Part shown: positions 493-3,391 of the stretch, piece by piece
How positions within the stretch are numbered: the first letter of the stretch is position 1
Layout: every line of letters starts with the position of its first letter
NCBI GenBank assembly: GCA_017614375.1
Contig: JAGABZ010000008.1
Location: 1 to 56,101, forward strand
Length of the DNA: 56,101 nt
Origin: Spirochaetales bacterium
GTDB taxonomy: Bacteria > Spirochaetota > Spirochaetia > Sphaerochaetales > Sphaerochaetaceae
Direction: 5' to 3'
Made by a program: the position numbers and the translations under genes
The notes under the pieces: model-generated
Database searches by the model: none
Told to the model about the DNA's origin: nothing
Seen by the model: the letters and a program-made list of their open reading frames with translations, nothing else

Positions 493-1500
493 GTGCGCAT
501 AAGTCTAAAGAACCTTACAAAGAACTACGGAGAGTTGCATGCCGTCTGCGATGTTTCGCTCGAGATTCCGGACAACCGGATTTTCGGCATCATCGGAAAA
601 TCCGGGGCAGGCAAGTCGACTCTGGTCAGGATGATGAGCCTGCTTGAGGTGCCTGACAGCGGAAGCGTGTGGTTCGACGGCAACAGGGTAGATGACCTTG
701 ACCGCGGGAGCCTGATTATGCAACGCCGGCAGATCGGTATGATTTTCCAGAACTTCAACCTCTTTTCCTCACGTACCGCCGGCAGAAATGTGGCCTATCC
801 GCTGGAAATCGGCGGTTGTCCCAAAGAGGAAATCCGGGAGCGTGTGGTCGAGCTCATGGAAATTGTCGGGCTGGGCGACCGGATGGACGCGCCGATAAGC
901 ACCCTCAGCGGAGGCCAGAAGCAGCGGGTGGCCATAGCCCGTGCACTTGCCGTGAAACCTACGATTCTGTTCTGCGATGAGGCAACCAGCGCGCTGGATC
1001 CCCAGACGACCCATGCGATTCTGGATCTGATTAAGGATATTCAGAAAAAGATGAACCTGACCGTGGTGATGATTACCCACCAGATGGAAGTCGTCAGGGA
1101 CTGCTGTGATTACGTGGCGGTACTCGATGAGGGCCATGTGGTGGAGCAGGGCGCGGTTGCGGATATCTTCGCGCACCCGCAGAGCACGGTGACCAGGGAT
1201 TTCCTCGCCCACCTGATGACGGTGGATACTGCCAGGGGTGATTTGATCCGCTGGTCGGAGGACGGCGGCAGGTACACCCTGAGATTCCGCGGGGATATGA
1301 CCGACTCGCCGGTGTTAAGCAGGGTCTGCAGGCTGTTTCCTGTTGAGTTCAACATCCGCGCCGGCGGAGTCCAGATTGTCAACGGCGAGGAGATGGGGGC
1401 GCTTGTGTGCGACATTTCAGGTGCCGATGAGGACAGGGCAAAGGCTCTGGAGTACCTGAGAGAACAGGGAATTGTTATCGAGGAGGACCGCCGTGCCTAA
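493..1500 (+). CDS. metN: Methionine ABC transporter ATP-binding protein
   Basis: This is the cytoplasmic ATPase that powers uptake of methionine by the MetNIQ importer. The 335-residue protein has Walker A GKSGAGKST at 35-43, the ABC signature LSGGQ at 138-142 and Walker B ending in CDE at 161-163. The last hundred residues match the NIL/ACT-like domain of MetN, which in the family binds methionine and shuts the transporter down when the pool is full. Translation begins at a GTG preceded by AGGTG. The gene overlaps metI by eight bases and so is translated with it. The NIL domain and the neighbours favour MetN over other amino-acid ATPases. Confidence 0.92.
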   Translation: MRISLKNLTKNYGELHAVCDVSLEIPDNRIFGIIGKSGAGKSTLVRMMSLLEVPDSGSVWFDGNRVDDLDRGSLIMQRRQIGMIFQNFNLFSSRTAGRNVAYPLEIGGCPKEEIRERVVELMEIVGLGDRMDAPISTLSGGQKQRVAIARALAVKPTILFCDEATSALDPQTTHAILDLIKDIQKKMNLTVVMITHQMEVVRDCCDYVAVLDEGHVVEQGAVADIFAHPQSTVTRDFLAHLMTVDTARGDLIRWSEDGGRYTLRFRGDMTDSPVLSRVCRLFPVEFNIRAGGVQIVNGEEMGALVCDISGADEDRAKALEYLREQGIVIEEDRRA

Positions 1501-2164
1501 TTTTCAGAGCCTTTTCCCTCTGGTGATGAGACATACAGGACAGACGTTGTCGATGGTTTTCTTCTCCACGGTGTTTTCATTGATTCTGGGGCTTCCGATC
1601 GGAGTTTTGCTCTGCATCAGTTCCCCTGCCTCCGAGGGCGGAATCAAGCCGATGAAGGCCCTGAACAGCATTCTGGGCAGGATTGTGAATATCCTCCGGT
1701 CGTTCCCGTTTTTGATTCTGATGATTGTCCTGTTCCCCCTGTCCAGGCTGATTCTGGGACGGAGCATAGGCACCGCTGCGGCCATTGTCCCCCTGTCGAT
1801 TGCCGCGGCTCCGTTTGTGGCGAGAATCATTGAGTCCGCCCTGAAGGAAGTGGATCCGGGTGTGATTCAGGCGGCGAAGGCGATGGGTTCGACAAACACC
1901 CAGATTGTCACCAAAGTCCTGCTTCCCGAGGCGATGCCTGCGTTGGTTTCGGGGGTGACCCTGACGATAATCAACCTGATCGGGTACTCGGCCATGGCCG
2001 GAGTAATCGGCGGCGGCGGACTGGGGGATCTGGCCATCAGGTACGGCTTCCAGGGGTGGAGAACCGATGTTCTGGTTGCCGCCGTGATTGTAATCCTTGT
2101 GCTCGTGGAGATAGTCCAGCTTATCGGAAACCTGATTGTTTCGGCGCTGATCCGCAGGCGCTGA
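1493..2164 (+). CDS. metI: Methionine ABC transporter permease
   Basis: MetI is the membrane channel subunit, working as a dimer with MetN. The 223-residue protein has about five hydrophobic segments and the cytoplasmic coupling (EAA) loop, seen here as AAKAMGSTNTQIVTKVLLPE, which docks onto the ATPase. The start chosen is the GTG at 1493, seven bases after an AGGAGG site and inside the last codons of metN. A TTG 21 bases upstream would lengthen the protein but lacks such a site. Length and motif order are normal for the family. The gap to metQ (350 bp) is unusually long and holds separate control signals. Confidence 0.92.
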   Translation: MPNFQSLFPLVMRHTGQTLSMVFFSTVFSLILGLPIGVLLCISSPASEGGIKPMKALNSILGRIVNILRSFPFLILMIVLFPLSRLILGRSIGTAAAIVPLSIAAAPFVARIIESALKEVDPGVIQAAKAMGSTNTQIVTKVLLPEAMPALVSGVTLTIINLIGYSAMAGVIGGGGLGDLAIRYGFQGWRTDVLVAAVIVILVLVEIVQLIGNLIVSALIRRR

Positions 2165-2231: not shown

Positions 2232-2341
2232 TAGGGTTACAAAGGTCGGGCCATAATGACGCGGCAAAAAGTGCATACAGGTCTTGCAAAAAACAACAAA
2301 AGGCGTTAAGGTTGCAACATCAAAACAAAGGAGAGACAGCC

Positions 2342-2404
2342 ATGAACGTAGTTTCCAGACAGATGTGTTGCATGATGTCTCTCATGATGCCCGCCAGGGC
2401 ATAG
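2342..2404 (+). CDS. Methionine-rich leader peptide upstream of metQ
   Basis: This 20-codon ORF encodes MNVVSRQMCCMMSLMMPARA, with six methionines, four of them in two adjacent pairs, and two adjacent cysteines. It is preceded by a strong site, AAAGGAGAGAC, at a good distance from the ATG. Its last codons and stop fall inside a terminator-like hairpin (2387-2402), and its ribosome binding site can pair with its own methionine codons (2331-2338 with 2376-2383). Such a peptide just before a methionine-transport gene is what a translation-sensing attenuator would look like. No function has been shown, and I know of no named family. A chance ORF, or a metal-binding Met/Cys peptide, are the alternatives. 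Confidence 0.6.
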   Translation: MNVVSRQMCCMMSLMMPARA

Positions 2405-2417
2405 TACTTTTTATTTT
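2387..2417 (+). terminator. Terminator-like hairpin overlapping the leader ORF stop
   Basis: ATGCCC (2387-2392) pairs with GGGCAT (2397-2402) around a GCCA loop. The T-rich tract TTTTTATTTT begins five bases later (2408-2417). The stem is short, so termination may be partial. A ribosome stalled on the ATG pairs at 2384-2389 would cover the 5' arm and keep the hairpin from forming. Confidence 0.5.
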
Positions 2418-2513
2418 CCGTTCCATTTCAGTAATTGTTTGAAGGCCCCGAGGGCCGAAGTCCGTTTCCGGATATCCGGATCCACCCATTAGAAAGATAC
2501 TCAGGAGAAAACC
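2405..2513 (+). other. Remainder of metQ leader
   Basis: This stretch holds a small hairpin, GGCCC-CGA-GGGCC (2444-2456), and a perfect 14-base palindrome, TCCGGATATCCGGA (2467-2480). The palindrome could be a protein-binding site or an RNA hairpin. The metQ ribosome binding site, AGGAGA, ends the region. No further gene was seen. Confidence 0.4.
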
Positions 2514-3314
2514 ATGAAAAAGATTATCGTTGCAATTCTCGTAGCACTCATCGCAGTCACCGCCGCATTTGCCCAGCCCAAGGGCGAACAGCAGACCGTC
2601 CTCAAGGTCGGTGCCACCCATGACCCTCACGCTCTGATTCTGGAGCTGGTCGTAGATGATCTGGCCGCCCAGGGAATCAAACTCGAGATTATCGAGTTCA
2701 CCGACTATGTGCTTCCCAACACCGCGCTGGAAGAGGGACAGCTTGACGCGAACTATTTCCAGCACATCCCGTATCTGGAGAGCTTCAACAACGACCACGG
2801 CTACCATCTGGCCAACGCCGGCGGAATCCATATCGAGCCTCTGGCCGTTTATTCAAAGAAGATTACCGATCTCAAGGAACTGAAGGAAGGCGCCCTGATC
2901 GCCATCCCCAACGATGCGACCAATGAAGGACGGGCACTGCTTCTGCTCCAGTCCTCCGGGCTTATCACTCTGGCCGATTCGTCCAAGCTGGATTCCAAGC
3001 TTGAAGACATCACCTCCAACCCGCTGAACCTCAAGTTCTCCGAACTCGAGGCTGCCACAATCCCTCGTGTCCTGCAGGATGTCGATGCCGCCGTCATCAA
3101 CGGAAACTATGCTCTCTCCGCCGGACTGTCCGCCGCCAAAGACGGCCTGTTCATCGAGGGTGCCGATAGCCCGTACGTCAATGTCATAGCAGTCAAGCAG
3201 GGTAACGAGAACAATCCGGCTATCGTTGCCCTGGTCAACGCCATCAAGAGTCAGGAGGTCAAGGACTGGGTCGCCGCCAAGTATCCCAACGGAGAAGCCG
3301 TGCTGGTATTCTGA
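2514..3314 (+). CDS. metQ: Methionine-binding protein of MetNIQ transporter
   Basis: A periplasmic NlpA-family binding protein that captures methionine and delivers it to MetI. The 266 residues begin with a classic signal peptide (MKK, a hydrophobic core, then AFA-Q as the cleavage site near residue 20). The mature part carries family landmarks such as ANYFQHIPYLE and IAIPNDATNEGRALLLL. Unlike most MetQ proteins there is no lipobox cysteine, and the whole protein appears free of cysteine, so it should be released into the periplasm rather than lipid-anchored. It is set apart from metNI by its own leader. The family also binds other small amino acids, so methionine is the likely but not proven ligand. 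Confidence 0.9.
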   Translation: MKKIIVAILVALIAVTAAFAQPKGEQQTVLKVGATHDPHALILELVVDDLAAQGIKLEIIEFTDYVLPNTALEEGQLDANYFQHIPYLESFNNDHGYHLANAGGIHIEPLAVYSKKITDLKELKEGALIAIPNDATNEGRALLLLQSSGLITLADSSKLDSKLEDITSNPLNLKFSELEAATIPRVLQDVDAAVINGNYALSAGLSAAKDGLFIEGADSPYVNVIAVKQGNENNPAIVALVNAIKSQEVKDWVAAKYPNGEAVLVF

Positions 3315-3359
3315 TTGTCCTGTGGGCTTCCCCACTGTACATAAGACTCCTTTTGCCTT

Positions 3360-3391
3360 CGGAGCGGTCAAAAGCCGCTCCGATTCTTTTG
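3360..3391 (+). terminator. Terminator after metQ
   Basis: CGGAGCGG (3360-3367) pairs with CCGCTCCG (3375-3382), an 8-bp GC-rich stem with a 7-nt loop. It is followed by the T-rich ATTCTTTTG. It ends the metQ transcript. Confidence 0.8.

Follow-up and report, generated by a model that had tools for sequence, protein, structure and literature searches.

The locus studied here raises a simple question: what fills the 349-nt gap that separates metQ from metN-metI, and could it govern expression of metQ? The window (the whole stretch of DNA that was analyzed, 56,101 nucleotides, contig C7 of the 1.54-Mb genome G000 of a Spirochaetales bacterium) starts with metN-metI, and metQ follows after the gap (Table 1). 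The best NCBIfam match of the metQ product is MetQ PRK11063 (219 bits, under its cut-off), and a canonical terminator lies 3' of the gene at 3359-3383 (d-score +16). For the gap itself, the original prediction was a methionine-rich leader peptide whose last codons overlap a terminator, the design of an amino-acid-sensing attenuator. For a handful of amino acids, attenuation by leader peptides belongs to textbook biology. A probable promoter for a leader-metQ mRNA was located in the gap, and among 84 relatives TATAAT-like hexamers are concentrated 27-34 nt 5' of the leader ATG (68, where 8-nt windows have a median of 37). The start of the mRNA therefore probably lies shortly upstream of the ribosome binding site (RBS). 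The support for this promoter is only positional, because overall sigma-70 scores barely exceed those of shuffles.

Table 1. Genes and putative control features around the metI-metQ gap, in window numbering.
Feature	Position	Strand	Basis and remarks
metN, ATPase of the same importer as metQ	493..1500	+	ABC_tran and NIL domains; TIGR02314 345 bits, below cut-off; upstream context
metI, permease of the same importer	1472..2164	+	PRK10782, 211.3 bits versus cut-off 212; start uncertain; upstream context
Probable promoter of leader-metQ mRNA	2284..2312	+	TTGCAA, 17 nt, TAAGGT; -10 end 29 nt 5' of leader ATG
Leader RBS, AAAGGAG	2327..2333	+	9-15 nt 5' of ORF start; in nearly all relatives
P1 5' arm, GAGAGACA, RBS side	2331..2338	+	exact 8-bp partner of 2376-2383
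Leader ORF, 20 codons, MNVVSRQMCCMMSLMMPARA (stop)	2342..2404	+	read directly; 84 distinct homologous peptides
P1 3' arm, TGTCTCTC, within leader ORF between the two ATG pairs	2376..2383	+	pairing with 2331-2338, MFE fold
P2 hairpin, ATGCCC-GCCA-GGGCAT	2387..2402	+	5' arm, last Met codon; 3' arm ends at first base of the stop
U-rich tract after P2, TTTTTATTTT	2408..2417	+	TTTTT 2408-2412, TTTT 2414-2417
Third hairpin, GGCCC-CGA-GGGCC, metQ 5'UTR	2444..2456	+	between P2 and metQ
metQ, methionine ABC transporter substrate-binding lipoprotein, putative controlled gene	2514..3314	+	Pfam Lipoprotein_9 1e-92

The leader described by the original prediction, with its RBS and its six ATG codons, could be read directly from the DNA. 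The ATGs are codons 1, 8, 11, 12, 15 and 16, that is, the start, one single codon and two adjacent pairs, and on both strands of the 56-kb window this is the sole ATG-started ORF of 12-40 codons with at least five internal Met codons. Homologous leaders were collected with an ORF finder demanding a start, an RBS and at least four Met, and the raw Met count in the resulting 84 distinct leaders (26% of non-start residues, with 4 to 7 Met beyond the start in most) is therefore biased upward. Less biased are the covariance-model matches described below, for which no ORF was required, and the distribution of internal ATGs over the reading frames, with 447 in the leader frame versus 11 and 2 in the others. 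Counting back from the stop, Met occupies codon -5 in 95% of leaders, -6 in 88% and -7 in 81%, Ser is found at -8 in 79%, and a second Met cluster lies at codons -12 to -10 (55-73%). The presumed regulatory Met codons are thus conserved by content and frame across relatives, and the N-terminal half of the peptide is unconserved. Typical examples are MRAAFCFNSCMMSLMMMPGRA, MTNNIYAMCSVSMMASSMMMMPVWA, MNSFFISLMCFTSMMCPCRA, MTLNNIFTAMMMSSMMMPGRA and MANVSTMMMSFSMCMPWRA, each followed by a stop; the RBS is absent or unclear in G059 and G084. Cys codons are also frequent beside Met (MCM, MCC, CMP) at codons -11/-6 before the stop, a pattern that may stem from RNA pairing (AUGUGC) or from the sensing of sulfur amino acids.

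To define the distribution of the element, we looked for metQ in 139 genomes of the family to which the window belongs (an order-level search gave the same 139), read the gap in relatives, and applied a covariance model of the 3' half of the element, R1, at E ≤ 0.05. Matches were found in 82 of the 139 genomes and in 8 of the 22 genera, most of them in sequences that had not been used for training. The element nearly always stands directly before metQ, and in several genomes it also precedes second MetQ/NlpA genes. Conservation of the ATG codons and of the hairpin in relatives, on which the original prediction had been staked, was checked and favors the element. Among 395 genomes of the class, the only matches outside the family were at chance level (E 0.027-0.047, five genomes). 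No convincing leader-like Met ORF was found before metN or metQ in the genera without the element, where metQ mostly lies close behind metI. Two candidates were set aside: a second match in the window's own genome (C12:34900, E 0.15) is not a leader, and G008:C131 (E 0.005) falls within coding sequence.

The leader region is predicted to fold into two helices. RNAfold of 2322-2420 returned P1, extended inward, together with P2 at -29.5 kcal/mol (z -3.3 versus 200 shuffles), and the MFE folds of the 84 leaders include P1 in 80 cases and P2 in 82 (mean fold z -2.8). P1 is the pairing between RBS and methionine codons that had been proposed from the single sequence, and this proposal held up well in the comparison. 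On exchange of partners among the 84 leaders, the duplex energy of its arms weakens from -15.4 to -12.6 kcal/mol (0 of 5000 permutations), and the advantage of the own partner is also seen within genera g2 and g10 (0 of 3000 each), g21 and g13, these counts not being probabilities because the leader sequences are related. It was not seen among the three leaders of the window's own genus. Pairs such as GGAGGACA/UGUCCUCC, GGAGGUAA/UUACCUCU and AUAGGAGGUAUGCA/UGCAUGUCUUCUAU illustrate the compensation, and P1 covaries with the RBS through compensating changes.

P2 behaves differently in that its stem is almost invariant (79 of 79 at five of the six pairs), the outer pairs being forced by the Met codon and the stop. 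Its loop takes 28 sequences, mostly GNNA. G131 has a spacer of 5 instead of 4, and in G006/G008 the stem is shifted. In G062 and G028 (both UGA) and in G080 (UAA) the stop codon has moved inside the loop, so that the peptide ends in MMMP, and G078 has a compensated stem (ATGCGC/GCGCAT) with UAG in the loop and a peptide ending in MMMMR; other relatives carry the tail MMMPLGA. Because P2 is kept when the stop moves into the loop, the PxRA tail is dispensable and a by-product of the hairpin.

Downstream of P2 come AG and then TACTTTTTATTTT. At least five T in 8 are found within 14 nt of the P2 stem in 74 of 84 leaders, versus 26 of 84 for the next stretch. The hairpin and the T runs of the original prediction are therefore real features of the DNA, but calling them terminator-like was generous: the d-score (d'Aubenton-Carafa rule) of P2 is -21.7 in the window and negative throughout the 84 leaders. 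The reason is that the stop-codon bases precede the U-rich tract, whose first U lies 5 nt after the stem. Ordinary terminators nearby pass the same test. By this score P2 is not a canonical intrinsic terminator. Pairings of the Met region, of P2 and of the 5'UTR with downstream RNA were searched for an antiterminator, and no conserved one was found: the Met region gave no own-versus-swapped signal, and P2 gave a marginal one only (172 of 3000 permutations). Occlusion by the ribosome would have to take the place of such a structure. At a place similar to that of the third hairpin of the window, a hairpin of varying sequence is often predicted in relatives, with folding on average no stronger than that of shuffles (mean z -0.43). 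In genus g10 this place holds GGTCCC-loop-GGGACAT, the 3' arm of which resembles the RBS side of the leader and might base-pair with AUGUCC in the Met region there.

We consider it likely that the element is a ribosome-read, cis-acting sensor of methionine (Met-tRNA), with starvation raising metQ and with premature transcription end at or just after P2 as the output. Translation of the leader, sensing of Met-tRNA, raised expression on starvation and the end of transcription at or just after P2 are all inferred, with the frame bias of the ATGs as no more than indirect support for translation, and the output step is the weakest link. In the proposed working, metQ would have a promoter of its own, and its mRNA would carry the leader ORF at the 5' end. 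With Met-tRNA plentiful, the ribosome would pass the Met codons and leave at the stop, P1 would close over the RBS, P2 would form, and most transcripts would yield no MetQ. With Met-tRNA scarce, the ribosome would dwell at the Met codons that overlap the P1 3' arm and the P2 5' arm, keeping both helices open so that metQ could be expressed. Standard footprint sizes suggest that the ribosome would cover both of these arms while codon 15 or 16 occupies its A site. On this geometry the earlier idea, in which a stall at the second ATG pair lets metQ be expressed, is plausible. Such induction on starvation would suit genes of import and biosynthesis. Since every protein also begins with methionine, starvation should slow initiation on the leader as well as elongation. 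A difficulty is that P2 would be left free by a ribosome at the first Met cluster but covered by one that waits at the stop, which leaves the decision to kinetics. The broader proposal, a methionine leader-peptide regulon that evolved in one spirochaete family, in which Met codons, RBS-sequestering helix and output hairpin overlap and the stalled ribosome is the switch without any antiterminator RNA, we regard as evenly balanced between right and wrong.

The same sensor might act through a different output, with the position of the ribosome deciding whether Rho loads or an RNase cleaves in the G-poor stretch beyond the ORF, in place of intrinsic termination at P2. The 28 or so nt that follow the leader stop (2405-2440 in the window) are nearly free of G and rich in C/U across relatives, as in Rho-loading sites, and rho is present in the window's genome, which makes Rho-dependent output a serious alternative. 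The failure of P2 as a canonical terminator points the same way. However, the position-locked enrichment of U after P2 fits an RNA-polymerase pause or terminator better, and stalling of a ribosome upstream would give Rho access to the stretch, which makes the logic harder to sustain. We judge this output rather unlikely; the G-poor stretch itself may be a Rho-loading or RNase site. In genus g10 a recurring TTTYCACCACATC-like motif is found in that stretch.

It is much less probable that the peptide itself is the sensor, with (S)MMMP arresting the ribosome when free methionine or SAM binds in the exit tunnel. SMMMP is indeed the most conserved stretch of the peptide, but P2 dictates much of the conserved tail, the residues after MMM vary freely (PARA, PVWA, PLGA, P-stop, R-stop), the N-terminal half is unconserved, and the number and spacing of Met residues drift as expected of a leader that is read by codon. 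That P2 is instead a DNA operator (palindrome ATGCCC-N4-GGGCAT) for a transcription factor, with the ORF incidental, is the least credible reading: the nearly invariant stem is more operator-like than that of a covarying hairpin, but its outer pairs are forced by Met and stop codons, the palindrome is phase-locked to a Met-rich ORF, its spacer, position and stem vary in G131, G006/G008 and G078 as described above, the loops are mostly G-N-N-A, and an RBS-covering RNA helix covaries alongside.

Attenuators governed by leader peptides in enteric bacteria include trpL, hisL, leuL, thrL, ilv and pheL, and Rfam holds Trp, His, Leu and Thr leader families. The element resembles them in having a short 5' ORF with many codons for the amino acid to which the downstream genes relate, a helix at the RBS side, and a hairpin with a U-rich tract before the gene. 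It differs in that the amino acid is methionine, that mainly a transporter subunit is putatively controlled, that the presumed sensing codons are part of the RBS helix (its 3' arm) and of the terminator-like hairpin, and that no 2:3 antiterminator was found, the stop codon lies in the hairpin and the hairpin is a weak terminator. In pyrBI-type and antibiotic-inducible leaders the ribosome itself covers the terminator. Here too the ORF runs into the terminator-like hairpin, so that the ribosome would be the antiterminator; unlike in those leaders, the signal would be the codon cluster of one amino acid rather than nucleotide pools or a drug, and an RBS-sequestering helix is added. The best reading is that the element is, by its apparent working, a leader-peptide attenuator with a new amino acid and a new layout. 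Full membership in the class is not claimed, because no antiterminator was found and the d-score of P2 is negative despite the conserved hairpin and U-tract. Of the attenuator design originally proposed, the conserved Met-rich ORF, found almost exclusively before methionine genes, has stood, while the intrinsic-terminator score fails in 84 of 84 leaders.

The amino acid specificities given for such attenuators are His, Leu, Thr, Trp, Ile/Val and Phe, methionine being absent (PMC3766115), and leaders have been extended to Firmicutes (His), with Proteobacteria and Actinobacteria cited (PMC2965389). SAM riboswitches and methionine T-boxes likewise exert methionine-linked cis control of metNIQ and met genes, but no aptamer or T-box match was found at the leader site. 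At the gathering threshold, Rfam matched no cis-regulatory family in the window (SAM, T-box and leader families included), and in 2160-2520 just one chance-level match, below the gathering score and on the opposite strand. The metXZ RNA element of betaproteobacteria is also a predicted cis RNA with a terminator before methionine genes; unlike the leader described here, it has six conserved RNA regions and a pseudoknot, with no leader peptide mentioned (PMC4239095). In agreement with the original prediction, neither a methionine leader peptide nor a leader from a spirochaete was found in the literature searched, which was mostly without subscription journals.

Methionine may be sensed by more than one means in these bacteria. 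In the window's genome a SAM riboswitch (RF00162, 56 bits) stands before metK (G000:C5:63465-63552) and not before metQ, which leaves metQ to another sensor, and SAM sensing and the Met leader would divide the work there. SAM riboswitches are scattered over the family, being present in only 22 of the 139 genomes. If the proposed reading is true, the leader would be a compact switch and would provide a Met-tRNA sensor for mostly uncultured spirochaetes, in some of them beside a SAM riboswitch.

Control of a single importer gene, as originally envisaged, proved too narrow, since relatives carry the element before other genes too. These include a second metN (MetN-like ATPase) in G082, metA in G005 (Pfam HTS 3e-116) and metY, encoding O-acetylhomoserine sulfhydrylase, in G131 (TIGR01326, 637 bits versus a cut-off of 495); the leaders of metA, metY and metN were each found once, score weakly in the model (E 0.004-0.04) and were accepted on their anatomy. 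The element also precedes genes for a family-5 solute-binding protein (G083:C45 and G082:C29) and a ybdH-like oxidoreductase of the iron-ADH family (G116:C37:8402-8454; PRK10586, above cut-off). The leader would mark such genes as methionine-linked. For the family-5 binding protein this makes it a candidate importer of methionine peptides or of a methionine-related compound. In gammaproteobacteria including E. coli, ybdH belongs to the MetJ regulon and is repressed with methionine salvage genes (PMC3228920). The ybdH-like gene behind the Met leader in G116 is divergent from a MetQ paralog.
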